Below, piece by piece: positions 3-37,341 of a DNA stretch of 37,341 nucleotides. Origin of the DNA: Gammaproteobacteria bacterium (GTDB lineage: Bacteria > Pseudomonadota > Gammaproteobacteria > Pseudomonadales > Azotimanducaceae). The stretch lies in the NCBI GenBank assembly GCA_009837725.1, contig VXSY01000142.1, forward strand, positions 1-37,341, written 5' to 3'. Below the pieces are notes generated by a model. That model was not told the DNA's origin. It saw only the letters and a list, made by a program, of their open reading frames with translations, and searched no databases. The position numbers and the translations under genes were made by a program. How positions within the stretch are numbered: the first letter of the stretch is position 1; each line of letters begins with the position of its first letter.

Positions 3-1118
3 GATGCGCCCAGCAACGTCGGGTTCGTAGCGCAGTTGCAGGAACTCGGAGGCGACGCCTTTGGCTTGTTCGACGTTCCCCTTCCAGACAGGCTGGATCA
101 GGCGACCTACTCCGCTGGCCTCGACTTCGCCTACGAGATCGACTTCTGGGGCCGAGACACGAGTGCGGCGCGCGCCGCCCACTCTGAGCGGCTTGCGTCC
201 GAGGCGGATCTTCGCGCCGCGCGGATGGGCGTCGTTGCCGAAACCGTCGCCACCTATCTGGAGATTGTGGACCTTGGGCGCCAGCACGGCTACGCCAAAG
301 AGACCGTCCGCATTCTCGGCGAGTGGGCGGTGCTGGCAGAGGATCGCTACGAACGCGGTGTCGGAGACGTTCGCGACGTGTACGCCATTCGCCGGAACCT
401 GCGCGACGCCGAAGCGGCCTTGCCCGGCATCACGGCGCGCCGAACAGACGCCCAGGGACGTTTGCAGGTCTTGGCAGGGGGCAGCGATGCCGAGCTCGTG
501 GCCGACCTATCCGAATCGATGCCTAGTCCTGCACTGACAGACTCGCCGGTGGTCATTTCTGCCGAGACCCTCGCGCAGCGTCCCGATGTCGCGGCGGCGC
601 GGCAACGCTTGGCAGCCGCCGGGTTCGCGCTCGACGCGCGCCGGGCCGCACTCCTGCCGTCGCTGTCGCTGTCCGGATCCATCGGCTTGCAGAGTTCACA
701 AACCGATGTCTGGTTCGATCCGGACCAATGGTTCAGGAACTTGAGCTCCAACCTGCTCGCGCCGGTGTTTCAGGGCGGCCGGCTACGCGGCAACGTGGCA
801 CTCGCCAAGGCCAACTTGAGGGAGGCCACCTCCACCTACGGCAAGGCGGTAGCCACCGCGACGGCCGAGGTTGGGGCGGCATTGGCCGCACTGGAATCGA
901 GCCGCGAACGGGCCTCTTTGCTGGCGTCGCGGGCCGGGGAGGCAGATGCCGAGAAGGTGCTTCAGGAGCGGCGCTACGCAGCCGGAATCGCCGACTACCG
1001 GACCGTGCTCGGGGCGGCGCAGCTGGAGGTGGCGGCGCTGGCGGCGCTGGCGGCAGGAGAGCGCGAGCTGGCGTACGCGAGGCTGGCGCTGCACCGCGCG
1101 GTTGGTGGGGCGTGGTGA
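3..1118 (+). CDS. RND efflux outer-membrane factor (TolC/NodT-like), 5' truncated by window edge
   Basis: Frame is open upstream of the listed TTG start to position 3. The protein has OEP-type repeats (DFAYEIDFWGRD, YLEIVDLGRQ, ETLAQRPDVAAARQRLAAAGFALDARRAALLPSLSLSGSIG). Confidence 0.9.
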   Translation, partial: DAPSNVGFVAQLQELGGDAFGLFDVPLPDRLDQATYSAGLDFAYEIDFWGRDTSAARAAHSERLASEADLRAARMGVVAETVATYLEIVDLGRQHGYAKETVRILGEWAVLAEDRYERGVGDVRDVYAIRRNLRDAEAALPGITARRTDAQGRLQVLAGGSDAELVADLSESMPSPALTDSPVVISAETLAQRPDVAAARQRLAAAGFALDARRAALLPSLSLSGSIGLQSSQTDVWFDPDQWFRNLSSNLLAPVFQGGRLRGNVALAKANLREATSTYGKAVATATAEVGAALAALESSRERASLLASRAGEADAEKVLQERRYAAGIADYRTVLGAAQLEVAALAALAAGERELAYARLALHRAVGGAW

Positions 1119-2452: not shown

Positions 2453-3481
2453 TCAACCCGGCTTGCGTGCCAGAAAGCAATAAAGCGGCGTGAATATGCC
2501 CGACTCGCCGCCGGCGACGTACGCCGCTGCCGTTCGATCCATCAGTTGCACAACCGCGGCGGAGCCGCGTGGGAAAGCCCCAATCGCCTCGGCCAGCCGC
2601 ACCGAGGCGGCAATCGCCTTGCGCCCCCAGGGGGTGCGGCGGAAGGCGCTTCTCAAGGTGCCGCGGCGTCCCACCATTGGCTGATACCAAGGGGTGCTCG
2701 GGCCTTCCTGGGCGCCGTGGTTCTTCGCCTCGACGATCTCGAACCCGACCGCCTCCAAGGCGTCGTTCACCCCCTTGAAGGTGGCGATCTCGCTAAGCGC
2801 GATGCCGAGCATGAGGTCCCTCTCCGCGGCCCGGTGATGGGCGTTGTCAGGATCGAATACGTCGGTCAGGCACATCTCCTGGCCCCAGAACAACGCCCCC
2901 GGTTTCAGGACTCGATAGATCTCGGCAAACGCTCCCTGCTTGTCCGGCGCATGGCACGTGGACTCGATCGCGTACGCCGCATCGAACGTGTCGGCCTCGA
3001 TTGCGCCCATGTCCATGAAGCTGCATTGCAGGGTTTCCGTCACGTGATCGAGGCCAGCCTCGACGTTTAAGCGTCTGGCCTTTTCGAGCTGCTGGCCGTT
3101 GTTGTTGACACCGAGCACCTGCGCGCCCGATTCGCGCACGACGCGCCGCATCGGCCCACCGACGCCGCAGCCGACATCGACGACTCGCATTCCGCGCTCG
3201 AGTTGCAGGCGTTCGATCATCAAGCGCTGATGGCGGAGGATGGATTCCTCCAGACTCTCGTCCGGCGTCAGCGGCGCGAAGTGGAGCGATTCGCTCCAGC
3301 CGAACTGCATGAACTCCGTGCAAAGGTCGTAGTAGGTGTTGACGGTCTCGGTGTGGTCGTAGCCGCCACTGCCGCCCTTGCGATCGCTTTCGTCCAGCCA
3401 TCCGGCGAAGCGCGCGACGCGATCCTTGACGTTCCAGCCGCCGTAGGCGCGCGCAAGGTTGCCGGGCAGACTGTTGCGCAT
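2453..3481 (-). CDS. Sterol C-24 methyltransferase (SMT/Erg6-like), SAM-dependent
   Basis: YYDLCTEFMQFGWSESLHFAP, VDVGCGVGGPMRRV, GVNNNGQQLEKA, AYAIESTCHAPDKQGAFAEIYRVLKPG, DNAHHRAAERDLMLG and a C-terminus ending GGESGIFTPLYCFLARKP match the SMT signature motifs and the Sterol_MT_C-type C-terminal domain. Confidence 0.92.
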   Translation of the reverse strand: MRNSLPGNLARAYGGWNVKDRVARFAGWLDESDRKGGSGGYDHTETVNTYYDLCTEFMQFGWSESLHFAPLTPDESLEESILRHQRLMIERLQLERGMRVVDVGCGVGGPMRRVVRESGAQVLGVNNNGQQLEKARRLNVEAGLDHVTETLQCSFMDMGAIEADTFDAAYAIESTCHAPDKQGAFAEIYRVLKPGALFWGQEMCLTDVFDPDNAHHRAAERDLMLGIALSEIATFKGVNDALEAVGFEIVEAKNHGAQEGPSTPWYQPMVGRRGTLRSAFRRTPWGRKAIAASVRLAEAIGAFPRGSAAVVQLMDRTAAAYVAGGESGIFTPLYCFLARKPG

Positions 3482-6843: not shown

Positions 6844-7869
6844 TCAAGTCGCGTAGAACTGCTCACAATAGCGGCGAAAGCGCAGGATGTCGCGGTCGGC
6901 ACCCGAAAGCACGGGGCGGGGCCGGTAGCCCTGTCGCCGCCAGATCTCCGCGTCCTTCCGCACTTCCAGCACGAGTTCGTTGAGGAACAGGCGTGGCATG
7001 ACGGCCCACCCCAGCGCCGCGAGCGGTCCCCGAAGCCAGCGCCAACGCGGCAGACGCTCCACGTCGATGACCAGCCACACGTCGATCAGGTCGCCATCCA
7101 CCGGCGTCGAAAGCACCCATTGGCGCACTCGGAAGCCGCTGCGTCCCTCGATGATGACCGTGGAAACACCAAGCCCCCGGACCTCGATGGCGATTTGCAC
7201 CGAAAGCTCGAGTGGCGCAAGGCCGGAGGTGAGCATGTTGCGGCTGAACGCATAGGAACTTCGGAGCACCGGGCCGTCAACCTGCGTCGCGGCAACCTGC
7301 TCAAGTTCACGGTACCCATGCACATGGGCCAGGTGGGCGCTGTCCACGGAGTTCTCCGTGATGGTCTGGGGGTGTGCGCGCACACGCAGCACGGCCAGCG
7401 ATCGTGCGCGATTGACCGCCGACACCTCCTGCGGACGCCAAGTCGGCGCTTGATCGCCGCGATGGTGCCAGGCGAACACGAAACCGTTGCATTCAGTCAC
7501 CTCGAAGCGGTCGAGCTGCGCCGATCTCGGCGGAGGCCCGTTTGGCGTCGCCACACACTTGCCGCCGGTGTCGTACTCGAAGCCGTGGAACGGGCAGACG
7601 AGGCAATCGCCAGAGACCTTGCCGCCGCCATCCGGACCGAGATGGGCACCGAGATGCGGACAGATCGCATCGGCCACGCACACGTCCCCTGCGGAATCGC
7701 GCCAAGCCACGATCTCGCGCCCCATCCACTGCTTTTCCACCAACTTGCCCGCAGGCAAGCGATCGCTCTCCTCAACGACGTACCAGCCGTCGGGGAACGG
7801 ATCCAGCTCTTGCCTGTCCGCAGTGGTCGGTCCGGCTCGTTCCATCGAAAAGCCTTCGCAGATCGCCAT
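6844..7869 (-). CDS. Rieske non-heme iron oxygenase (possible sterol/steroid oxygenase)
   Basis: Rieske motif CPHLGAHL...CPFHGFEY (CxH...CxxH) and mononuclear iron motif D-x2-H-x4-H in ENSVDSAHLAHVHG. Confidence 0.9.
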   Translation of the reverse strand: MAICEGFSMERAGPTTADRQELDPFPDGWYVVEESDRLPAGKLVEKQWMGREIVAWRDSAGDVCVADAICPHLGAHLGPDGGGKVSGDCLVCPFHGFEYDTGGKCVATPNGPPPRSAQLDRFEVTECNGFVFAWHHRGDQAPTWRPQEVSAVNRARSLAVLRVRAHPQTITENSVDSAHLAHVHGYRELEQVAATQVDGPVLRSSYAFSRNMLTSGLAPLELSVQIAIEVRGLGVSTVIIEGRSGFRVRQWVLSTPVDGDLIDVWLVIDVERLPRWRWLRGPLAALGWAVMPRLFLNELVLEVRKDAEIWRRQGYRPRPVLSGADRDILRFRRYCEQFYAT

Positions 7870-8141
7870 TGGCGACTGTCGGTTAGCGGAAACGGGATGT
7901 CAACGACGAACGGTGGCTGTGAGTGCCGGGCTTGGGATGGCTGATGAGGTGAGAGATCAAGTCGGTTCCCCTTGGGAGGGCGTCTCGCCAGGCGCCTCGC
8001 CATCCCCACAAGGGTCGCCCCGATAGAGGCACCGCACGAGTCACCATTGAAGACGACTTGTGCAGAGCTTGGGCAACGCGGTACAAAAGCAGCCGTCAAC
8101 CCGGACCCAAGCGAGGTTGGGCTGGTGATGGGAGGCGTGCG

Positions 8142-9014
8142 GTGAATCGGACAACGGCGTGGCTTGGCATCGCTGGGGCGATCGTGGTCGGAGCGTTGGT
8201 CGCATTCGCCGGCAGCGATGGCGGCATCCGCTGCGGTGCTCTACCCGTGTTTGCCGTCTGCATTGCCCTCGCCTACGCCATGCAGTGGCTGGCCTTCGTG
8301 CCGGCATGGCTCTCGCGCTCGGAGCGCTTCTTCGACCTCACCGGTTCTGCGACCTACTTGGCCGGGATGGGCGTCGCGCTCTTGGCATCGGGTGCCGTCG
8401 ATCTCCGCAGCGGCTTGATCGCCGCGTTTGTGGCGGTGTGGGCAGTGCGCCTCGGCCTCTTCCTGTTCCTTCGCATTCGCCGCGCGGGTGCGGATCGCCG
8501 GTTCGACCGACTGAAGGCGCGGCTACCGGCGTTCCTGATGACGTGGACGCTGCAGGGCGCGTGGGTGTCACTTGCCTGTGCGCCGGCGCTGGCGGCCATC
8601 ACATCTCGAGCCTCGGTACCGGGCCTCGATGGCTGGTTGCTCGCCGGCGCGGCGCTGTGGCTTGCCGGCTTCGCCATCGAGGTGCTTGCCGATGAGCAGA
8701 AGCGGCATTTCCGCATACGCCCGGAGAACGCCGAGCGCTTCATCGATACCGGACTCTGGGGCTGGTGCCGCCACCCGAACTATTTCGGCGAGATACTGCT
8801 TTGGTGCGGGGTGGCAATGGTCGCGGCGCCAGCACTCCAAGGCTGGCAGCTTGCCACCTTGCTCTCGCCCCTCCTGATCGGCCTGCAACTCACCTTCGTG
8901 AGCGGCGTTCCGCTACTCGATACGCGCGCCAAGAAGCGCTGGGGCGAGGACGCGGCCTATCGCCGCTATCGCGAGCGCACGCCCATGCTGTTGCCGTTGC
9001 CGCCGCGCCGATGA
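8142..9014 (+). CDS. DUF1295 / steroid 5-alpha-reductase-like integral membrane protein
   Basis: Multi-TM protein with HFRIRPENAERFIDTGLWGWCRHPNYFGEILLWCG, characteristic of DUF1295/ICMT-like reductases. GTG start at 8142 is preferred to the longer ORF. Confidence 0.85.
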   Translation: MNRTTAWLGIAGAIVVGALVAFAGSDGGIRCGALPVFAVCIALAYAMQWLAFVPAWLSRSERFFDLTGSATYLAGMGVALLASGAVDLRSGLIAAFVAVWAVRLGLFLFLRIRRAGADRRFDRLKARLPAFLMTWTLQGAWVSLACAPALAAITSRASVPGLDGWLLAGAALWLAGFAIEVLADEQKRHFRIRPENAERFIDTGLWGWCRHPNYFGEILLWCGVAMVAAPALQGWQLATLLSPLLIGLQLTFVSGVPLLDTRAKKRWGEDAAYRRYRERTPMLLPLPPRR

Positions 9015-11965: not shown

Positions 11966-13039
11966 CTAGCGGTTAGCCGTGCGGCGCGGCTGGAACCGAT
12001 AGTGGCAGACAAGCCATTCGTTGCCACCGTTCCAGCCGAACAGTTCTTCGCAAGCCATGAAGAACATGCGCCAGCGTTGCAGTTGGACGGGCGCTCCGTC
12101 GCACTCGCTACCGGGCGGCAGCGCCATCGACAGTGCCTTGCCGGCGGCTTCGCGGTTGCGGTCGAGATTGTCGAGCCAAGCGCGGGCGGTGCGCTGGTAA
12201 TGGCTACCCGACGCCTCCCACGTTCGCGTCAACCGCATGTGCTCCTGGAAGTGTGCCAGCGTGTCCCGCGCCGGCATGACGCCGCCGGTGAAGAAGTGAC
12301 GCGCCATCCAGTCGCCGCGCCCTTCTGCCTCGAACGGATAGGCAAGGCTGCGGTGGCAGAAGATGTGGACGAACAGGGCTCCGTCCGCCACCAGCCACGA
12401 CGAAACTCGTTGCATCAGTTCCGCGTAGTTGCGCATGTGCTCGAACATCTCCACCGAGACGATGCGGTCGAAGCGCTCGTCCGGTACGAACTCGTTCACA
12501 TCGACGGTGCGGGCCTCCACGTTCGTGAGGCCGGCTGTGGCTGCCCTTGCGGCAATGCAGCGCCGTTGCTCGGCCGAATTCGACACCGCAACGATGTGCG
12601 AGGCTGGATGTCGCTCGGCCAGCCAAAGCGCGAACGAACCCCAGCCGCAGCCCAGATCCAGCACCCGCATCCCGTCGGTTAAGCCGGCCCGCTCGGCATA
12701 GAGCTCCAGCATCCGCTCCTCGGCCTGCGCCAGCGTGGTCGTTCCGGCAGGCCAGAGGCAAGCGCTGTATTTCAGGCGCGGCCCCAGCACCTGACCAAAG
12801 AAGCCCGGCGGCATGTCGTAGTGCTGTGCATTCGCGGTGGCGGTGTGCTCAGCGATGGCGCCGCGCTCGAGTTGCCGCAGGATGTCTCGCTGGCGGACGG
12901 CACGTCGCGCCTTGTCTCCTGCGCTCTCCTGCCGCAGTCGGCTACGAATCAGTTGACGAATGCCGAGCCGTAGGAGCGCATCGGGCACCCGACCGGCCTC
13001 CGCCTGGCGCACCAGCGCGTCGAAGCCCGGCAGCCTCAT
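11966..13039 (-). CDS. Cyclopropane-fatty-acyl-phospholipid synthase family methyltransferase
   Basis: NAQHYDMPPGFFGQVLGPRLKYSACLWP, RVLDLGCGWGSFALWLAERHP, RIVSVEMFEHMRNY. Confidence 0.9.
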   Translation of the reverse strand: MRLPGFDALVRQAEAGRVPDALLRLGIRQLIRSRLRQESAGDKARRAVRQRDILRQLERGAIAEHTATANAQHYDMPPGFFGQVLGPRLKYSACLWPAGTTTLAQAEERMLELYAERAGLTDGMRVLDLGCGWGSFALWLAERHPASHIVAVSNSAEQRRCIAARAATAGLTNVEARTVDVNEFVPDERFDRIVSVEMFEHMRNYAELMQRVSSWLVADGALFVHIFCHRSLAYPFEAEGRGDWMARHFFTGGVMPARDTLAHFQEHMRLTRTWEASGSHYQRTARAWLDNLDRNREAAGKALSMALPPGSECDGAPVQLQRWRMFFMACEELFGWNGGNEWLVCHYRFQPRRTANR

Positions 13040-14292
13040 GGCCTACCTCGCGCACGCCACACGGGCCCGCGCCAGCCCCCCGGCGCGAGCAGCATCTGCA
13101 CGTCGCTGGTGGCGCGTTCGGCGAATCCTGCCTCGCAATAGGCGAAGTAGAAGCGCCACATGCGCAGGAATCGGCCTGGGCTGGGGCAAGAAGCATTGTC
13201 CACAGGCAACGGTTCTTGTGGCGCCAAGTCTGCCGAAAGGCGATGCGCGCCAGCGTCGAGACGAAGCCGCCACTCGCGCAGGGTGCGCGCATAGTCGAGG
13301 CCGAAGTCCTCCAGGTTCACGAGGGTGAGGTCGACCTTTGCCGCGGCGCGGGTGAGCACCGATACACTGGGGATGAAGCCGCCGGGAAAGATGTGCTTCT
13401 TGATGAAGTCGGCGCGGTGGAGCGCGCGGCGGTAGCGGCTGTCGCGGATGACGATGGCCTGCAGTGCCATGAGCCCACTTGGCTTGAGCAGCCGCGCACA
13501 GGCAGTGAAGTAGCGGTCCAGATAGTCGTGTCCCACCGCCTCCACCATCTCCACGGAGACGATCTTGTCGAACTGCCCCGTGATGCGGCGGTAATCCCGC
13601 GCCAGCACCTTGACGCGTTCACTCAGGCCACACGCAGCAACGCGCTCGAGAGCGTAGCGATACTGCGCCTCGGACACCGTGACCGCGGTCACGCGACAGC
13701 CGAAACGTTGCGCGGCGTGGATCGCAAGACCTCCCCAGCCACAACCGATGTCCAGCAAGTGGTCGTCCGCGCCGAGTGCCAGTTTGCGGCAAAGGCGCGT
13801 GAGCTTTGCCTCGGAGGCCTCCTCCAACGATTCTGTCCCGGTGTCGTACACCGCGCAGGAGTAGCTCATGGTGTGGTCGAGAAAGGTGCGGAAGAAGCCG
13901 TTGCCAAGGTCGTAGTGGGCGTGGATGTTGCGCCGGCTGCCCCGCAGCGTGTTGCGGCGGAAGCTATGGCGGAGGGTAGCGGCAACGGTGGCCGGCAGCG
14001 ACGCGACTCCCTCCAAGCCCTGGAGCGCTGAGCGATTGCGCAGCATGATCCGAAGCAGCGCCGGCAGGTCGTCGCAATCCCATTCGCCATCCATGTAGCT
14101 CTCGCCAGCACCCACGGACCCATGCAGCAGAAGGCGACGAAAAAAGTCGGTTCGGTGGACGGTGACGCGCACCGTCGGCGGTCCCGCCCCGTACTCGGTG
14201 GTGCCCGCAGCCGTCGTAAGCAGCAATGTGCCGCCGCGCAGATTCCGGAGGGCTTGCTCGACAACGGTCTCGGCGAGACGACGGATGCTCAT
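13036..14292 (-). CDS. Cyclopropane-fatty-acyl-phospholipid synthase (second paralogue)
   Basis: IHAHYDLGNGFFRTFLDHTMSYSCAVY, LDIGCGWGGLAIHAA, KIVSVEMVEAVGHDYL. Start set at the internal ATG at 14292; ATGA overlap with downstream gene. Confidence 0.92.
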   Translation of the reverse strand: MSIRRLAETVVEQALRNLRGGTLLLTTAAGTTEYGAGPPTVRVTVHRTDFFRRLLLHGSVGAGESYMDGEWDCDDLPALLRIMLRNRSALQGLEGVASLPATVAATLRHSFRRNTLRGSRRNIHAHYDLGNGFFRTFLDHTMSYSCAVYDTGTESLEEASEAKLTRLCRKLALGADDHLLDIGCGWGGLAIHAAQRFGCRVTAVTVSEAQYRYALERVAACGLSERVKVLARDYRRITGQFDKIVSVEMVEAVGHDYLDRYFTACARLLKPSGLMALQAIVIRDSRYRRALHRADFIKKHIFPGGFIPSVSVLTRAAAKVDLTLVNLEDFGLDYARTLREWRLRLDAGAHRLSADLAPQEPLPVDNASCPSPGRFLRMWRFYFAYCEAGFAERATSDVQMLLAPGGWRGPVWRARGRP

Positions 14293-14990
14293 CGCGAACC
14301 CCGCTGCGGGTGGACGTGGAACTTCGCTCCCAGGAGCCGCAGCCGCAACGCCTGCCAGTAGATGCGGCAAAGCGTGACGACGCTCTGCACTGGACGACGC
14401 ATTGAGGCGGCGAGGGCCCGCGTCACCGTCAACGGCCGCGTGCGCAGGACGAGCCGAGCGCTGACGGCTTCGACTCCTGCCAGAGTGATGACGATGCCCA
14501 AGGCACCGTCCCGAATTGCAAGCCGCAGCGTGTAGCGGCCGGCAACCGGCAGGAACGGCGAGACGTGAAACGCCTTGTCGAACTCGAACCGGTATCTGCC
14601 GGGCCCGGCGCTCGCCGAGGCAGCGTTCAAGGCATAGCAATGCCGTTCGCCCCATGGCGTGTTGGTCACGTGCAGCACCACGCCGGTAAGCGTTCCCCTT
14701 CCGCCCGCAGCGACACCGAAATAGAAGTTCACCGGGTTGAAGTTGCCGGACAGCGAACGTGGCGCGGTAAGGGCGAGCAGGCGACCGTCCGCCTCGGCAC
14801 CCACGCGACGCAAGTGATCGCGAATGACATTCGGCGGCAGCAAATGACCATCGCCCGCCAGCAACCATCTCAGGCCACTCTGGACGCGCTCCACATCGAC
14901 GCAGAGCATCCAAAGCGGGTAGCGGAAGGAGTGCCGCGGCACTGCGCGCGCATGAACCACGGCGCCGACGCAGACCATCTCACCGAGCAT
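14289..14990 (-). CDS. DUF1365 family protein
   Basis: VVHARAVPRHSFRYPLWMLCVDVE, NFNPVNFYFGV, VLHVTNTPWGERHCY, FDKAFHVSPFLP. Start uncertain (14990 or 14978). Confidence 0.88.
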   Translation of the reverse strand: MLGEMVCVGAVVHARAVPRHSFRYPLWMLCVDVERVQSGLRWLLAGDGHLLPPNVIRDHLRRVGAEADGRLLALTAPRSLSGNFNPVNFYFGVAAGGRGTLTGVVLHVTNTPWGERHCYALNAASASAGPGRYRFEFDKAFHVSPFLPVAGRYTLRLAIRDGALGIVITLAGVEAVSARLVLRTRPLTVTRALAASMRRPVQSVVTLCRIYWQALRLRLLGAKFHVHPQRGSR

Positions 14991-16224
14991 CCGCCAACGC
15001 TCCCATGTGCCCCGCCGCAGCCGCAACCGCGTGGGCGGCCTCTACCCCACTCTGAAAGCCGTCCTCGTGGAACCCCCAGCCCCACCAAGCGCCGCACCAG
15101 AAGGTCCGGTTTGCGCCCTGCACCTCGGCGCGGCGACGCTGCGCCGCCTGTGTTCTCCGGGAAAATACGGGGTGGCTGTAGTGCCGTTCGGCCCAAACTG
15201 CCTGCAGTTGCCGCTCGGGGTTAAGCGTGACGAAGAACGGATGCGGCGAGTGGATTCCCTGCAGCCGGTTCATCCAATAGGTGAACTCCATGCCCCCAGC
15301 GCGACCGGCGCAGACGTTCCAACTCGACCAAGCGCCGCGACGCTGCGGCATCGCCGAAGCGTCGGAGTGCACCACGGCCCGGTTCGGCTGGTAGCGAAAG
15401 GCCCCCACGACCTCGCGTTCGAGTGGCGTGGGCGCTATGAGCTCGAGCGCTTGGTCGGCGTGACAAGCGAGCACCACATGCTCGAATCGGTCCCTTCCTA
15501 CATCCGTCTGCACCGTGGCCCCCTCCGCATCCCGCTCCACGCGCCGCACCGGCTGCGAGGCGCGGACGCAGCCTCGAAAGCGGCTCGCGAAGGCGCGCAC
15601 GTAGGCGGCAGAGCCACCCTCGACGACTTCCCACTGCGGGCGATCTCGAAGCTGCAACAAGCCGTGGTTGGCCATGAACTGCGCCACATGGCCGATGGGC
15701 GTCTGTCGCGCCCGTTCCGGCGGCACGGACCAGATGGCGGCGCACATGGGCAGCAGGTGCCGCTGCTCGAAGCTCTCGGAGAAACCCTCCTCTGCCAGAA
15801 ACTCCGCTAGCGTCCGAGTGTCGTCGTGGCCGACGCACCGGGCTGCCTGGTGGAACCGACGGATGTCGCGCAGCATGGCAAGGAAAGTGGAGCTGAGGAG
15901 GTTGCGGCGTTGGCAGAAGAGGGCCCGCAAGTCGGTCGTGCCGTACTCCACGCCGTCGACGCTGACCCCGAAGGACATGCTGGTGGGCCTTGAGTCCACG
16001 CCGAGTTCGTCGAGCCAAGCCGAAAAGCCGGGATAGTTGCGGCGATTGAAGACGATGAAGCCGGAATCCACGGCATACGTGCGCCCGTCCACGAACAGAT
16101 TGTGGGTGTCCGTGTGCCCGCCGAGGGAGCCGCTCGCCTCGAACAGGGTCACGTCGGCGAAGCGCTGCGCGACGTGGGCGGTCGCCATCCCGGCAACGCC
16201 ACCGCCAATCACCGCGACGCGCAT
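14980..16224 (-). CDS. FAD-dependent oxidoreductase (NAD/FAD-binding, amine-oxidase-like)
   Basis: N-terminal MRVAVIGGGVAGMATAHVAQRFADVTLFEASGSLGGHTDT, plus SGFIVFNRRNYPGF and WCGAWWGWGFHEDGFQSGVEAA. Confidence 0.9.
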   Translation of the reverse strand: MRVAVIGGGVAGMATAHVAQRFADVTLFEASGSLGGHTDTHNLFVDGRTYAVDSGFIVFNRRNYPGFSAWLDELGVDSRPTSMSFGVSVDGVEYGTTDLRALFCQRRNLLSSTFLAMLRDIRRFHQAARCVGHDDTRTLAEFLAEEGFSESFEQRHLLPMCAAIWSVPPERARQTPIGHVAQFMANHGLLQLRDRPQWEVVEGGSAAYVRAFASRFRGCVRASQPVRRVERDAEGATVQTDVGRDRFEHVVLACHADQALELIAPTPLEREVVGAFRYQPNRAVVHSDASAMPQRRGAWSSWNVCAGRAGGMEFTYWMNRLQGIHSPHPFFVTLNPERQLQAVWAERHYSHPVFSRRTQAAQRRRAEVQGANRTFWCGAWWGWGFHEDGFQSGVEAAHAVAAAAGHMGALADAR

Positions 16225-17102
16225 GGTCGCTCCGTCTCCGTGGGCGCCGGCTTCAGATCCGTCACGAGCCCGAGCGCCGCCAAGAGCTTGAGACCGAGCC
16301 ACGCGAGGTCTAGCTGCCACCAGCGAAAGCCCAGTCGCGCCGAGCCGGCGTGACGGTGGTGGTTGTTGTGCCAGCCCTCGCCCATGGTGATGAGCGCCAG
16401 CCACCAGAGATTGCGGCTCGAATCGCGAGTGTCGAACGGCCGCTGCCGGCGGCGCAAGGGACCGGGTCGATGGGCTACGGAGTTCACCAGAAAGGTCGCG
16501 TGCATGAGCGCGACGGTAGAAAGAACGTAACCCCACACCAGCATCTGCCAGCCGTTCGTGCCGAAGTCTGGGCCGAGCGCCTCGCCGAGCGCGAACATCG
16601 ACGCGCCATAGGCCACGGGCGCCGCGAGGTCGAAGCGATTCAGCCATCGCAACTCGGGAAATCGGGCGAGATCCCGAACGCGCACCAAGGGCGTGCGGAA
16701 ATGACGACGAGTGAGGAACCAACCCATGTGCGACCAACAAAAGCCGCGCCCCGCATTATGCGGATCGGCACCTGTGTCTGCGTTCGTGTGATGCAGTCGA
16801 TGGTGCGCGGCCCACCACAGTGGCCCACGCTGCGTCGCGGCGGCGCCCAGCGTCGCGAACACGAACTGGGTGCCCCGGCCGGCGCGAAACGCCCGGTGCG
16901 AGAAACATCGGTGGTAGAAGGCGCTAACCGCGAACGCCCGAACAAGGTAGGAGACGACTGCCACGGCCAGCGCCGCAGCGCTGACGCCGACGGCAAACAC
17001 GGCCAAGCACGCCAGATGCAGACCCATGAAGGGGACAATCCGCAGCCAGCCGATTGCGTCCTCCGACCCACCGCCTTCCATGGCCCCGGCCACACGTTCC
17101 AT
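16209..17102 (-). CDS. Acyl-CoA / fatty acid delta-9-type desaturase
   Basis: Three histidine boxes: HRCFSH, HRLHH, HNNHH. Start probably internal ATG 17102. Confidence 0.9.
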   Translation of the reverse strand: MERVAGAMEGGGSEDAIGWLRIVPFMGLHLACLAVFAVGVSAAALAVAVVSYLVRAFAVSAFYHRCFSHRAFRAGRGTQFVFATLGAAATQRGPLWWAAHHRLHHTNADTGADPHNAGRGFCWSHMGWFLTRRHFRTPLVRVRDLARFPELRWLNRFDLAAPVAYGASMFALGEALGPDFGTNGWQMLVWGYVLSTVALMHATFLVNSVAHRPGPLRRRQRPFDTRDSSRNLWWLALITMGEGWHNNHHRHAGSARLGFRWWQLDLAWLGLKLLAALGLVTDLKPAPTETERPCASR

Positions 17103-17426
17103 ACCCGCCTGGTTCCCAATGCAACGAGGCGAGCATCGTCGAACCGCCGTGAACGAGATGTGAGGGAACGCGACACGCCGCTTCACGTTGCCTTCACGTC
17201 TCACCCGGGGTCAGCGGATCGTCGGTGGAGTGCCGGCGCTGTTCCGGCTGAGCCAGAACTCGATCAAGGTCCCGCGAGTTGCAGTGCGCGACCACCCGGC
17301 GCCGCCAGCACCTTCGCGACCCGGCTCACGGCGTGAAGGGCTTGCGGGTCGAGCGCGGGACCTCCCGGTTGCTGGTAGTCTGTCCGCCGAAGATCAAGCT
17401 ATGCATTCAGTCTTGAGGCGGCGTTC

Positions 17427-31989: not shown

Positions 31990-33216
31990 GTGCGAACGCT
32001 CGACGTTTACCTCCACGGCGACCTGGTCGGACGACTCATCCTGCGCAACAACGGGCGGATGACGTTCGAGTATCTCGAGCGCTGGCTTGACAGCACCCAG
32101 GCCGTGCCACTTTCCCATTCGCTGCCGCTACAAGCGAAGCGCTTCTCGCAAGGTGAATGCGAACCCTTCTTCGGCGGCCTCCTGCCCGAAGCGGACAATC
32201 GTCGCCTGATCGCACGCTTTTTCCACATCAGCGAGCGCAACGACTTCGCGCTTCTCGAACGCATCGGCGACGAGTGCGCCGGTGCGGTCTTACTTCGCCC
32301 GGCAGAGGAAACGGACGCACAGGAAGAGCGCTTGCTGCCACTCGCCGAGAAGGATCTGGCGGCAGCGCTTGCCGAACTTCCGCAACGCCCGCTGCTTGTG
32401 GGAACCGACGGATTGCGGCTTTCCCTCGCCGGGGCGCAGGACAAGCTCGCGGTGCGACTCGAAGGCGACGACTTCTTTCTCCCGCTTGGTGCCGCCGTCA
32501 GCACGCACATCATCAAGCCCGCCATTGCCGGCTACGAGGGCTTGGTGTTCAACGAGGCGTTCTGCCTGTTGCTTGCCGCCGCCTCCGGACTGCCGACCGC
32601 ACAATGCCGCGTTGGCAATGCCGGCGGCATCGACTTTCTGCTCGTCCAACGGTTCGACCGCGCGAGGACCGAAGACGGCCGTGTCAAGCGCACTCATCAG
32701 GAGGATTTCTGCCAAGCGCTAGGCGTTCGCACCGACAGGAAGTATCAAGCTGACGGCGGCCCAAGCCTAAGGCAATGCTTCGCCCTGCTGCGCCAGGCAT
32801 CAAGCGCGCCGGTCTTGGACCTGACAGCGCTCCTCAATGCCGTCACCTTCAATCTCATCATTGGCAACCACGATGCCCACGGGAAGAACTTCGCCCTGAT
32901 GCGCGAGCCGGGTCAGGTGCGCTTTGCGCCGCTATACGATCTGGTTTGCACCGCTGTGTTTCCGAACCTGAGCACACGCTTGGCAATGCGGATCGGTCGC
33001 CAGACCGACTCGATGCGCGTCTCGACAGCGGACCTGGATCGCATGGCAACGGACGCTGGGCTGGCGCGACCCTTGGCAATTCAGAGTGTTCGCGAGCTCG
33101 TAGCCACCATTCGCGGCCAAATCGCCTCGGTCGCCGCCCAGGAACCACGATTTGCGCCCACCGCCACCCACGTCGCCCAACGCGCCGAGCATTTCGCCAA
33201 ATCCTTGGGCGCTTGA
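31990..33216 (+). CDS. hipA: HipA-family serine/threonine kinase toxin
   Basis: FFGGLLPEADNRR, LSLAGAQDKLAVRL, THIIKPAI, FLLVQRFDR, NLIIGNHDAHGKNFALM; GTG start. Confidence 0.92.
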   Translation: MRTLDVYLHGDLVGRLILRNNGRMTFEYLERWLDSTQAVPLSHSLPLQAKRFSQGECEPFFGGLLPEADNRRLIARFFHISERNDFALLERIGDECAGAVLLRPAEETDAQEERLLPLAEKDLAAALAELPQRPLLVGTDGLRLSLAGAQDKLAVRLEGDDFFLPLGAAVSTHIIKPAIAGYEGLVFNEAFCLLLAAASGLPTAQCRVGNAGGIDFLLVQRFDRARTEDGRVKRTHQEDFCQALGVRTDRKYQADGGPSLRQCFALLRQASSAPVLDLTALLNAVTFNLIIGNHDAHGKNFALMREPGQVRFAPLYDLVCTAVFPNLSTRLAMRIGRQTDSMRVSTADLDRMATDAGLARPLAIQSVRELVATIRGQIASVAAQEPRFAPTATHVAQRAEHFAKSLGA

Positions 33217-33414: not shown

Positions 33415-33852
33415 TCATACAAGCAGGAAGTCCGCGGGGCGCAAGATGTCGACTCCACGAAACGGCGACACAACCAGCAAGTCTTGGTCGCCCGAGACGA
33501 GATAGCGGGCCTCGCCGCGCAACGCCACTTCGAGGAACTTGTCGTCGTCAGGATCTCGGCAGCCTAGCTGACGACCGTAGATCCTCACCAGTTCAGACAC
33601 GCGTTGCAGACGGTCGGTGTACCTGGCTCGACCCTCGTCGTCGATGTAGCGGTCGAACTTGGGCCTGCATAGCCGGGTTTCCAACTCCGCGAGGGTTTCC
33701 GTAGAGAAGAGCAGCGCGCCACCCCGCTTCTCCACCACTTCAAGCGCCTTGTTCGGGACGCTCGACGGTCGGAGAGCGGCACTGATCAAGACGTTGGTGT
33801 CGAAGACATATCCCTCAGCTCTCGTCGGCAAGGAGCCTTTCAAGCTCCGCAT
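33415..33852 (-). CDS. PIN-domain ribonuclease, putative toxin (COG1569-like)
   Basis: YVFDTNVLISAALRPSS, ETLAELETRL, CRDPDDDKFLEVAL, YLVSGDQDLL: the four conserved acidic positions are present. ATG lies inside the csb2 3' end. Confidence 0.88.
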   Translation of the reverse strand: MRSLKGSLPTRAEGYVFDTNVLISAALRPSSVPNKALEVVEKRGGALLFSTETLAELETRLCRPKFDRYIDDEGRARYTDRLQRVSELVRIYGRQLGCRDPDDDKFLEVALRGEARYLVSGDQDLLVVSPFRGVDILRPADFLLV

Positions 33853-36094
33853 CCGTCAGCCCTCGTCGGGTGGCTTCCCTGCCGATTTCGTTCATGGTCG
33901 CCCGGAGCTCCTTCCAGGCTTGCTCGCGTGACGGGTCGCTGCGGGCCTCGCTCGGAGGCACGGCATGAAAAAGTCCCCCACCGGAATGGCTGTCGCGGCC
34001 AAGCAGCAGAGGGCCGCGAAACGCCGTAGCGAAATGGAGCGTCACGGACGCCTTCGGGCTGCCCCCCTTTGGCCCAACCGAAATCTCCGAGAGTGCCAGT
34101 CTTTCCGGGGCAGGAATACCGCGACGAGCACACTCCGCATACAGGTCTTTAGCAATGGCGGCACGAGCGCGGCTCTTGCTCTTCGCGTGGCGGGTGGCCA
34201 AGTAGGGCGTCACGCTCTCCCAAGTAGCAGCCGGGCCGACAACCGGATCGCCATCGCTGAGCGGAAGAGCCGCCAGACGGAACCGCCCTACGGAACCTGC
34301 CCGCAAGTCGTGCAAGGCCCGTACAGTCCGATCGAACATCTGCCGTGCGGGGCCTTGCGGAGCCTTCGCATGATCCCCACGCCATGGCGCTACCACCAAG
34401 AGACGCTCAATCCAATCGCGTTGGCCGTGTTGGCCTGTGTCAGCCGCCACGAAAATGTGCCCATCGTGCGGAGAACGATCGGGACTGCCATCGTCTTCGT
34501 GGCCGGAGAACAGGCGGCTTACCCTCCCACGGTCGTCACGAGCCAGGGCCATGAGAGCGCGCCGCAGGGCCAGCAATAGCACCGCACCATCCGGTCTTGA
34601 AACTCGCACGCCCGTGTCGAACCGCAGAGCGAAAAGGTCGCAGTGGTCGTGCACGACCGGCTCCATCAGCCCTAAGCCGGTAAAGCGACCGTCGCCGATC
34701 GCGAGGGGGCCCGACACTTCACTCGGAAACTCAATCTCCACGTGCCACATCGCCATCGGTGAGAAGCGCGAACCGTTCGCGAACGCATCAGCGCGCGCGC
34801 CACGACGCTGCAACGGCTCTCGCTGGACGGCGATGCTCGATGGCTTCGTGCGAACGCCAGCATCGCGCAGCGCTTGCACTACGGCAGCGGTTGCCCGCGC
34901 CTCGTCCTCCCGTCGTTGGTGCGCATCGCCGGCAGGGCGTCGACGCGCCCGGGATAGCGCCACTGCCGTCACGCTGCGAAACAGGCGCGATGGGCGTCTG
35001 AAGCGATCCGCCATGGTCTCGTCGCCCGTCGAGACAAGCTTGCCCGACCAGGTCTCTCCAGTGGCTGGGTCCATGGGCGCGAGACCTGCGAATGCCCACT
35101 CAAGGTCACGGCTGCTAATAGGGCACTCTCGGGGGACTTCAACCGTCACGCGGCGGATTGAAGGGTCCGTGTGCTGCGTTCCGATGGACGGGATGGGGAG
35201 GATTCGCGGTCGAAGTACCAAATCATGCCTGTCGGCGTTCCGCCCAACAACGAGTCGCTCGACCTCTGGGCTTTTTCGAGGAAGTGCGTCTTGCAGCTTT
35301 CGCGCCGCTTGGTTCCGGATGCCTACTACGAAAGCCGCGGCGGAATGAAGCGGTCGAGGAGCGAACCGGCTCTCATCCCTCACCTCGAAGTGCAGCCATC
35401 GTGGCGGAGCTTCATAGCCAACGTAGCGAAACCAAGCCTTTGGGGGTTGGGTGAACCTTGTCTGGCCATCATTGCTGGACAGGCGCTGTCGCCTCCCCTG
35501 TTGGCGCACGAGTAGGCTAGTCAAGGAACCGGGCCCTGGCACGGCTATCGTTCCCGAGCTGCTCGGTCGCCAGATGGAACCCGCATAGGCGACGAGTCGT
35601 GCCTCGGACTCATCGTTACCTAGGACTTCGCCTGTCGCGGCGGCCATGTCCACACCGCGACCAAGCTGATATAGCTGGGTAGCCGTTTCGCAAAGGCGTC
35701 GGGCTTGGGCCTCCTGCGTCTCGAACTCCCAGACGTAGAGGATGGGAATCGACGGATCAAACAGGCGTGGTCGCCAAGCCTTACCCACGCGGATCTTCGC
35801 TACGTTCCCCGGGTCACCGCCGACCGCGTCGAGGTCGTTGTTGGGTACGAACGTGGATAGTGTTCCCCCAAGGCGCGAAGCCGGCGTTGCGATTCGAGGA
35901 GCGGGAAGGTCTTCCAGCCAAGCAAGCGCTTGCTGGTCATTGACGGCAATGGATCCTCCACGAGCAGCGCCCGCCACGAGGCCCTGAAACAGCCTCGCCG
36001 GCGACGGTGGCCAGGAACCGCCGTCGAATCCGTCGCCTTCGCCGTGATAGCGGCCGTCATGGATGCGGACCGCGACCATAAGGGACTTATTCAT
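33815..36094 (-). CDS. csb2: Type I-G (I-U) CRISPR-associated protein Csb2 (Cas5-Cas6 type) with antitoxin-like C-terminal extension
   Basis: RAMP-like N-terminus (MVAVRIHDGRYHGEGDGFDGGSWPPSPARLFQGLVAGA) and C-terminal glycine-rich region (TAFRGPLLLGRDSHSGGGLFHAV), adjacent to csb1. Tail PPSEARSDPSREQAWKELRATMNEIGREATRRGLTDAELERLLADES follows. Confidence 0.85.
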   Translation of the reverse strand: MNKSLMVAVRIHDGRYHGEGDGFDGGSWPPSPARLFQGLVAGAARGGSIAVNDQQALAWLEDLPAPRIATPASRLGGTLSTFVPNNDLDAVGGDPGNVAKIRVGKAWRPRLFDPSIPILYVWEFETQEAQARRLCETATQLYQLGRGVDMAAATGEVLGNDESEARLVAYAGSIWRPSSSGTIAVPGPGSLTSLLVRQQGRRQRLSSNDGQTRFTQPPKAWFRYVGYEAPPRWLHFEVRDESRFAPRPLHSAAAFVVGIRNQAARKLQDALPRKSPEVERLVVGRNADRHDLVLRPRILPIPSIGTQHTDPSIRRVTVEVPRECPISSRDLEWAFAGLAPMDPATGETWSGKLVSTGDETMADRFRRPSRLFRSVTAVALSRARRRPAGDAHQRREDEARATAAVVQALRDAGVRTKPSSIAVQREPLQRRGARADAFANGSRFSPMAMWHVEIEFPSEVSGPLAIGDGRFTGLGLMEPVVHDHCDLFALRFDTGVRVSRPDGAVLLLALRRALMALARDDRGRVSRLFSGHEDDGSPDRSPHDGHIFVAADTGQHGQRDWIERLLVVAPWRGDHAKAPQGPARQMFDRTVRALHDLRAGSVGRFRLAALPLSDGDPVVGPAATWESVTPYLATRHAKSKSRARAAIAKDLYAECARRGIPAPERLALSEISVGPKGGSPKASVTLHFATAFRGPLLLGRDSHSGGGLFHAVPPSEARSDPSREQAWKELRATMNEIGREATRRGLTDAELERLLADES

Positions 36095-36097
36095 GGC

Positions 36098-37171
36098 CTA
36101 CCCTTTCTTTGCGCTCGCGTCTTCCTTGGCAAGTCGCTTGTCGAAGTCCACCTGTCGGTCCTTCCCAACCCCGAAATCGCACGATGCCGCCTGCGCGTAT
36201 GCGAGCACCGCGTCCTCATCCAAAGGCACGGCGGTACGGACTCCGGCTCGGGAAATGGTCTCCCAAGCACTATCACATTCGGGATCCAGAGTCAGCAGGC
36301 AGCCGGCCCTCAGGAACCCGTCCATCGGCGCAGTGGCTGCAACCAGCGCCAAACCGAGAATATAGCGCCGTAGGGCCACGTCGTTGCTCCCGTTGCCCTC
36401 TAAGCGTCGGAGCGCGATCAGATTCACAGTTACATTGCGCCGAATCGAGCCTCTTGCGATGACTCCCCCGTGCGTGCCCACGGCAGGCACATGCACGAAC
36501 CCGCGTTGCGCCAATGGGCTCTTGGGGTTGCCCTCGGACTTCTCCCTATCCGCGTCGGAGAAGACATCTAGGTCGGCGTAGTCAACCGGCGGGTTGTACT
36601 GGGCGGAGCGGCGCAGTTCGTCAACGTCCTCTGCTCTGATGGTTGCCTGAATGACCCGCGGGAACTTGACCTGAGTATCTCGGGAATCCCAAACCCCGAA
36701 CACCAAAGATGTGGGACCAAGCTTGGCTATTGCCGTGGCATCGCCGCGACCGTCGTAGTCCAAAAAGGCGTCATGCACCTCTCCCTTGAGGGCTGTCGAG
36801 CGCACGATGGCATCGCCGAGCCGATGCCCCGCCTCAAGGAGGGAGACCGATTTCTCGTTCCCATACCTGATCTCGATCTGCGGCACCAGCGCAGCACGAG
36901 GATTCTCCGGGTCGTCGCGCCGCGCTGGCAAAAACGCCGGCTCCATGCGGTTGGCCTGTGCACCAACGCTGTCGATGGTGGCGATCTTGGTACCATCCGC
37001 AAGCTCGTCGATGTTGTAGTGGACATTCGCCTCCGAGTACGCATAGGTTGGCGGAAAGATCACGCCGCCCGGACCCTCCACCGGCATCAGTTCCTGACGC
37101 AAATGAAGTGCGACTGGGCCGTGCGGGTTGTCCGCCCAATCGTTGATCCGGTCCTCAGTTTCAGCAGTCAT
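36098..37171 (-). CDS. csb1: Type I-G (I-U) CRISPR-associated RAMP protein Csb1 (Cas7)
   Basis: IDSVGAQANRMEPAF, GHRLGDAIVRSTAL, GPTSLVFGVWDSRDTQVKFPRVIQATI, QRGFVHVPAVGTHGGVIARGSIRRNVTVNLIALRRL. Start set at internal ATG 37171 (MTAETEDRINDW). Confidence 0.88.
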   Translation of the reverse strand: MTAETEDRINDWADNPHGPVALHLRQELMPVEGPGGVIFPPTYAYSEANVHYNIDELADGTKIATIDSVGAQANRMEPAFLPARRDDPENPRAALVPQIEIRYGNEKSVSLLEAGHRLGDAIVRSTALKGEVHDAFLDYDGRGDATAIAKLGPTSLVFGVWDSRDTQVKFPRVIQATIRAEDVDELRRSAQYNPPVDYADLDVFSDADREKSEGNPKSPLAQRGFVHVPAVGTHGGVIARGSIRRNVTVNLIALRRLEGNGSNDVALRRYILGLALVAATAPMDGFLRAGCLLTLDPECDSAWETISRAGVRTAVPLDEDAVLAYAQAASCDFGVGKDRQVDFDKRLAKEDASAKKG

Positions 37172-37341
37172 TGGCCATTTCCTCGGTAACGTTGGTGATG
37201 CAGCGAGCCTGTCCTTCCTGTCCGGGCCAGTCCAAGTGCATCGTGAATCTGCGAAAGGGCGCACCCGGCACGGGCGGTGATTCGGCACCTAGTGTACTGT
37301 CTCCAATAGAACAGGTTTTATGACGCATCGGCGATTGCGGT

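Follow-up and report, generated by a model that had tools for sequence, protein, structure and literature searches.

The gene at positions 2453 to 3481 of the window (the whole stretch of 37,341 nucleotides analysed here) codes for a protein that is, judged by its sequence, a genuine bacterial member of the sterol methyltransferase (SMT) family and belongs to a distinct subfamily, which we call type A. We consider it on balance probable that this enzyme acts with a pair of oxygenases and a pump to modify and transport sterols acquired from the host or the surroundings. The preliminary description had read the gene as a bacterial homologue of sterol C-24 methyltransferase; its membership of the family was borne out by the domains and by the tree, but not the C-24 specificity as stated, the region I signature being partly changed in all 87 members of the clade.

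The minus strand of this interval is filled by an open reading frame of 342 codons running from ATG to stop, and no coding was found in the matching frame of the plus strand, which a stop interrupts. Both domains of the broad SMT family are present in the product, namely Methyltransf_11 (2e-17) and Sterol_MT_C (9e-17; score 61.4 bits, cut-off 21.7). The Sterol_MT_C model had no match in any of 14 control genomes, so that the match is not due to chance; with the Pfam scores this rules out a chance motif. The signature motifs announced in the preliminary description stood in part: the SAM-binding motif DxGCGxGGP (DVGCGVGGP, residues 102-110) and YAIExTCHAP (YAIESTCHAP, residues 170-179) are there, as is the eukaryote-like C-terminus (IFTPLYCFLARKP), and it is region I (MQFGWSESLHF) that is altered. 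Placement with tocopherol-type methyltransferases, which had been named as evidence against the assignment, was not found in the domains, the models or the tree: Ubie_methyltran reached only 1e-6, the NCBIfam models for UbiE and tocopherol methyltransferases scored far below their cut-offs, and a methyltransferase of tocopherol, carotenoid or UbiE type is ruled out by the Pfam and NCBIfam scores. None of the NCBIfam equivalog models came near its cut-off. Eukaryotic contamination was likewise ruled out by a GC content of 0.649 (0.66 in the window), the bacterial operon and the recurrence of the locus in many genomes. The AlphaFold model and a PDB search gave a class I methyltransferase fold, which does not reveal the substrate; the nearest structures were the natural-product methyltransferases AtmM, TleD, SpnF and MitM, with no close SMT structure among the matches listed.

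In the tree the type A proteins form one clade of 87 sequences with 10 phylum labels (SH-aLRT 100; stem 1.05), separate from the bacterial SMTs of the same family that carry the canonical motif. The phylogeny that had been proposed as a check places the window protein within the SMT family and outside the eukaryotic 24-SMTs (SH-aLRT 100), the eukaryotic side of the tree being weak as it consists of only two rows. Kinship with the SMTs reported from uncultured bacteria was confirmed (PMC10070321), whereas the small group to which the protein had been assigned proved to hold relatives in the hundreds, over ten phyla. When 85,462 species genomes were scanned, at least 563 relatives were confirmed; the best 80 of these show 61-82% identity, their titles naming Gamma- and Alphaproteobacteria, Chloroflexota, Gemmatimonadota, Acidobacteriota, Nitrospirota, Nitrospinota, Dadabacteria, Latescibacterota, Acidimicrobiia and one Deltaproteobacterium. 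Of the 16 genomes in the genus of the window, 10, among them that of the window itself (G000), encode a Sterol_MT_C protein (by sequence seven of type A, one of type B and two of type C), and no homologue at E <= 1e-40 was found in 398 other genomes sampled evenly from the phylum. Phylum labels require 17 changes on the tree against a minimum of 9, which alone is no proof of transfer, and the phylum spread has to be read bearing in mind that bins may contain stray contigs (GTDB). The nearest relative of the window SMT belongs to another genus (L068, which is G048:C31; 81% identity, support 100) and is closer to it than those of its own genus (70-73%), in keeping with gene transfer, which is also the best explanation for the spread of the cassette described below.

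Types B (L053, L064) and C (L055, L059, L063) are further bacterial SMTs, both with a canonical region I, and the type C gene adjoins a cluster containing oxidosqualene cyclase (OSC). The genome of the window has no second intact SMT; a remnant of 31 amino acids from the C-terminus of a type C SMT (G000:C239:24676-24765; L007, L065), identical at 24 of 31 positions to the intact copy in G005, makes it seem that a type C gene has been lost there.

The active site sets type A apart. C-24 methylation depends on the aromatic residues of the signature Y81EYGWG86 (PMC6997595), in place of which the window SMT reads MQFGWS; over the whole of region I, Y81, E82 and F89 of the diagnostic YEYGWGSSFHF are replaced. 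All 87 type A sequences of the alignment have the same residue at six positions (M58, L66, W199, Q201, M203 and L333). We take their yeast and Arabidopsis counterparts to be Y81, F89, A221, Y223, W225 and M360, and yeast numbering, in which Y81M, F89L, A221W, Y223Q and W225M are invariant throughout the 87, is to be treated as a lead only. E82 is replaced by V, Q or another residue in 81 of the 87. The contrast with types B and C is independent of the two eukaryotic sequences: these proteins, which come from sequenced genomes, keep Y81 in 90%, E82 in 100% and F89 in 100% of cases. Type A retains the equivalents of W85, H90, F91, E195, C198 and H199, and position 83 is aromatic in about 96% of its members. 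Fixation of residues unlike those of canonical SMTs in the entire clade indicates an active site that is both constrained and different, and C-24 specificity is therefore not to be assumed.

Table 1. Genes of the window at and around the type A SMT.
Feature	Position	Strand	Evidence
Outer-membrane efflux protein, 5' part beyond window start	3..1118	+	OEP 5e-35
Membrane-fusion (adaptor) protein of tripartite pump, 402 aa	1170..2378	+	HlyD_3 6e-10; conserved beside type A SMT
Type A sterol-methyltransferase-family protein, 342 aa	2453..3481	-	Methyltransf_11 + Sterol_MT_C; clade of 87; altered active-site residues
RND exporter (AcrB family), 1067 aa	3499..6702	-	ACR_tran 9e-157; conserved beside type A SMT
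Rieske non-haem iron oxygenase, KshA_C	6844..7869	-	Iron-site motifs CPH..CPFH and NSVDSAHLAHVH intact
DUF1295/steroid 5-alpha-reductase-like membrane protein, doubtful cassette part	8058..9014	+	DUF1295 3e-57, Steroid_dh 1e-6

The minus strand carries, in this order, the genes for the Rieske protein, the RND exporter and the SMT, the RND gene ending 17 nt upstream of the SMT start, and the outer-membrane and adaptor genes (OMF and MFP) converge on them from the plus strand. The Rieske protein is predicted to be of KshA type, having both the Rieske and KshA_C domains and both iron-site motifs. No recurrence of the DUF1295 protein beside type A was seen elsewhere. Contig C75 of the same genome ends in an overlap with positions 1-137 of the window (133 of 137 identical) and carries the 5' part of the outer-membrane gene and, some 0.64 kb ahead of the first base of the window, a gene for a P450 fused to GPP34; we infer the join of the two contigs from the 137-nt overlap, the junction not being assembled. 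Elsewhere in the window lie a HipA-like protein of the toxin-antitoxin kinase family (31990-33216, plus strand), Cas_GSU0054 and Cas_GSU0053 proteins of Csb2/Csb1 type that are part of a CRISPR-Cas locus at the window end (33815-37288, minus strand), and, consecutively on the minus strand (11966-17204), two cyclopropane-fatty-acid-synthase-like proteins, a flavin amine oxidase-like protein and a fatty acid desaturase.

Relatives of the window have GPP34-P450, RND, SMT, MFP, OMF and Rieske genes together in varying order. The GPP34-P450 gene lies near 57 of 80 type A loci, the KshA_C Rieske gene near 50 and both near 43; among the 48 loci of at least 20 kb these counts are 36, 33 and 29. As a background, the 4.66 Mb of G000 contain one full-length GPP34-P450 and two KshA_C proteins. 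Distances between SMTs correlate with those between their partners (Mantel r of 0.52 for the P450, 0.56 for the Rieske protein and 0.34 for RND), host kinship contributing to these values. The GPP34-P450 fusion is found at L048:3561-5567, at G000:C75:11138-13132 and at about 60 other loci, its haem motif being intact in 64 of 64 copies; GPP34 (Golgi phosphoprotein 3) is best known as a membrane-lipid-binding protein of the Golgi.

Several observations connect this cassette to sterols. Among solved structures the P450 is closest to CYP46A1 (cholesterol 24-hydroxylase) and CYP51, and the Rieske protein to KshA, the 3-ketosteroid 9-alpha-hydroxylase. Two loci (L113 and L138) have a complete CYP51-ERG24-SdmA-SdmB-OSC cluster less than 1.5 kb away from their type A SMT and P450, which ties these two to sterols, and L091 has the same arrangement with OSC out of view. 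G000 itself encodes an ERG24-family sterol reductase (C13:2289-3383; L168) that resembles the solved delta14-sterol reductase 4quv; genes related to it adjoin type A at L101, L105 and L109. Transporters of MMPL/HAE3 type with sterol-sensing-domain and Patched Pfam matches occur near type A in other phyla (L116:6464-8947, L088:4575-7010). Separately, in one genus member (L062:1299-10240, G010:C366) squalene epoxidase and OSC adjoin an RND gene homologous to that of the window.

Sterol synthesis appears to be a separate matter. The preliminary description had asked for a search of the genome for squalene epoxidase and oxidosqualene cyclase, and neither was found: G000, which is 95.8% complete, has no cyclase of the OSC/SHC family and no match to squalene epoxidase, and de novo synthesis is thereby unsupported in it, an absence that this completeness keeps from being final. 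All seven genus members that carry type A likewise lack a cyclase, and G075, a relative assembled as a single contig, has SMT, P450 and RND and no cyclase. Among 50 named type A genomes (of unspecified completeness, and with the OSC-like and SHC-like classes split by score), about 15 have an OSC-like cyclase, 18 an SHC-like one and 23 neither in full. Cassette and OSC are accordingly separable, and in some cells the substrate is possibly home-made.

It is on these genomes that an ordinary C-24 SMT of a de novo pathway has to be judged, in which the assembly would simply have missed OSC and squalene epoxidase and the altered residues would leave the reaction as it is. We find this unlikely, for besides the lack of both enzymes in a nearly complete genome, throughout the genus carriers and in the single-contig relative, those relatives that do bear OSC have canonical type B or C SMTs beside the OSC cluster. 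It draws strength from the coexistence of type A with OSC in L113, L138 and about 15 of the 50 named genomes, from the retention of most catalytic residues (the equivalents of W85, H90, E195 and H199), and from bacterial SMTs, many of them from sponge metagenomes, that methylate desmosterol in vitro (PMC10070321).

The reading that we prefer, that acquired sterols are remodelled, would work as follows. The SMT would be a SAM-dependent C-methyltransferase with a remodelled active site which, with the KshA-type Rieske protein and the GPP34-fused P450, would alter sterols taken from a host (probably a sponge) or from the surroundings, and the co-encoded RND exporter would carry either the sterol or the altered product across the envelope. 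That the substrate class is sterol seems very likely, and that the sterol is acquired instead of being made by this cell, distinctly probable. Chances are about even that the methyl group still goes to a side-chain double bond, GCGVGGP binding SAM and the retained W62, H67, F68 and E173 touching the sterol; we are equally divided over C-24 as the position methylated, C-26 and ring A being the alternatives. The pump is of multidrug type and may be unrelated to sterols.

Two other acceptors have to be weighed. It is quite improbable that the enzyme methylates a linear isoprenoid or some other hydrophobic natural product (squalene, for example) which the P450 and Rieske proteins make or modify and the pump exports. 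Botryococcus has SMT-like squalene methylases, and G000 encodes a protein of the squalene/phytoene synthase family but no cyclase, so that linear isoprenoids are conceivable; the AcrB-type tripartite exporter in the operon and the natural-product enzymes nearest to the structural model would also suit such a role. The KshA-type Rieske protein, the CYP46/CYP51-like P450, the ERG24-like reductase and the adjacent sterol clusters nevertheless indicate steroids, as do the MMPL proteins that match the sterol-sensing domain and accompany type A elsewhere among the phyla. Methylation of ring A (C-4) on 3-oxo steroids, by analogy with nematode STRM-1/4-SMT, is very improbable: 4-SMT is an SMT-family enzyme that has no region I aromatic signature and requires 3-oxo sterols (PMC6997595), Y81 and E82 are lost in type A, and the same three enzyme classes co-occur, the Rieske protein and the P450 on this view standing in for DAF-36 and DAF-9 of nematodes, but W85 and, in about 96%, an aromatic position 83 are kept, the neighbouring clusters also demethylate sterols at C-4, and type A is about 37-43% identical to ScERG6 and AtSMT1 against 21% between nematode 4-SMT and Erg6p.

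The acquisition of sterols agrees with where type A is found. Five loci (L118, L119, L127, L135 and L136) come from the bins MPNQ, MPND, MPNO, MPMV and MPMX, which are symbionts of the sponge Aplysina aerophoba. Beyond these five, association with sponges is inferred from genome names: the prefixes RHO, IRC, COS and APA agree with the hosts covered in a study of sponge MAGs, the SB06xx and jk18/p16 genomes we presume to be sponge series, and the Plut series may, we assume, be coral. Many carriers being known or apparent sponge symbionts suggests that these bacteria reshape sterols from their surroundings.

Steranes with alkylated side chains are taken as fossil evidence of eukaryotes and sponges. 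If at least ten phyla of sponge bacteria, many of them not making sterols, share a transferable sterol-remodelling set, unusual sponge sterols may partly be a joint product of host and microbe, and the question of the missing C-26 methylase would become testable with a defined and expressible gene family; the cassette also offers candidates for how bacteria alter or move sterols that they do not make. A bolder version, that type A methylates sterols in a new way (at C-26, say, or at another position that known 24-SMTs do not serve) and that symbionts of many phyla, a large share of them devoid of sterol synthesis, use it to rework host sterols, we put forward only as a speculative one. Were it true, type A would be one possible origin of unusual sponge sterols such as aplysterol and of side chains that serve as animal biomarkers (26-methylstigmastane), the methylase of whose C-26 step was named as undiscovered in 2023 (PMC10070321).

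SMTs in bacteria and sterol genes in sponge symbionts are already known. The Rieske/P450/RND cassette around an SMT is apparently undescribed: the main texts of PMC10070321 and PMC9531527, in the portions searched, do not mention it, and a search of open-licence papers on sponges, Rieske proteins, sterols and symbionts gave no such SMT cassette. Against the same open-licence literature, the type A clade and the fixed active-site changes and cassette that go with it look new, although some of the enzymes of Brown et al. may be of type A. These authors expressed 24 metagenomic SMTs in 2023, most of them active on desmosterol and three yielding 24-isopropyl sterols (PMC10070321). With these enzymes and ERG6/SMT1/SMT2 (EC 2.1.1.41), type A shares the domain pair, the length, the SAM motif, YAIE-TCHAP and the C-terminal FTP...ARKP block, and it differs from them in Y81M, the loss of E82, F89L, A221W, Y223Q and W225M, the window differing in addition by its Rieske/P450/RND cassette and by a genome without OSC.

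A parallel in habitat is offered by the ERG24-CYP51-OSC clusters (CSG) that Kelly et al. described in 2022 as transferred among Ircinia symbionts of ten phyla and often flanked by SMTs (PMC9531527). Sponge symbionts, ten phyla, evidence of transfer and an SMT in the set are common to both systems, and a cluster of the Ircinia type adjoins the type A genes in L113, L138 and L091. The SMT that flanks the CSG is of type C in the genomes read (L055, L113), unlike the type A of the window; moreover, the three core CSG genes are absent from the window and the type A cassette occurs without CSG. The nematode STRM-1/4-SMT is also an SMT-family relative with an altered region I; it acts on acquired sterols in a pathway containing a Rieske 7-desaturase and a P450 (PMC6997595), and it stands farther from the 24-SMTs than type A does. 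Finally, with the sterol transporters BstA/BstB/BstC of Methylococcus, as in the window, an RND-superfamily protein is encoded beside sterol-modifying genes (PMC10942540). BstA, which binds sterols, belongs to the MMPL family, represented beside type A in other phyla only, whereas the pump of the window is of AcrB type with its outer-membrane and membrane-fusion partners.
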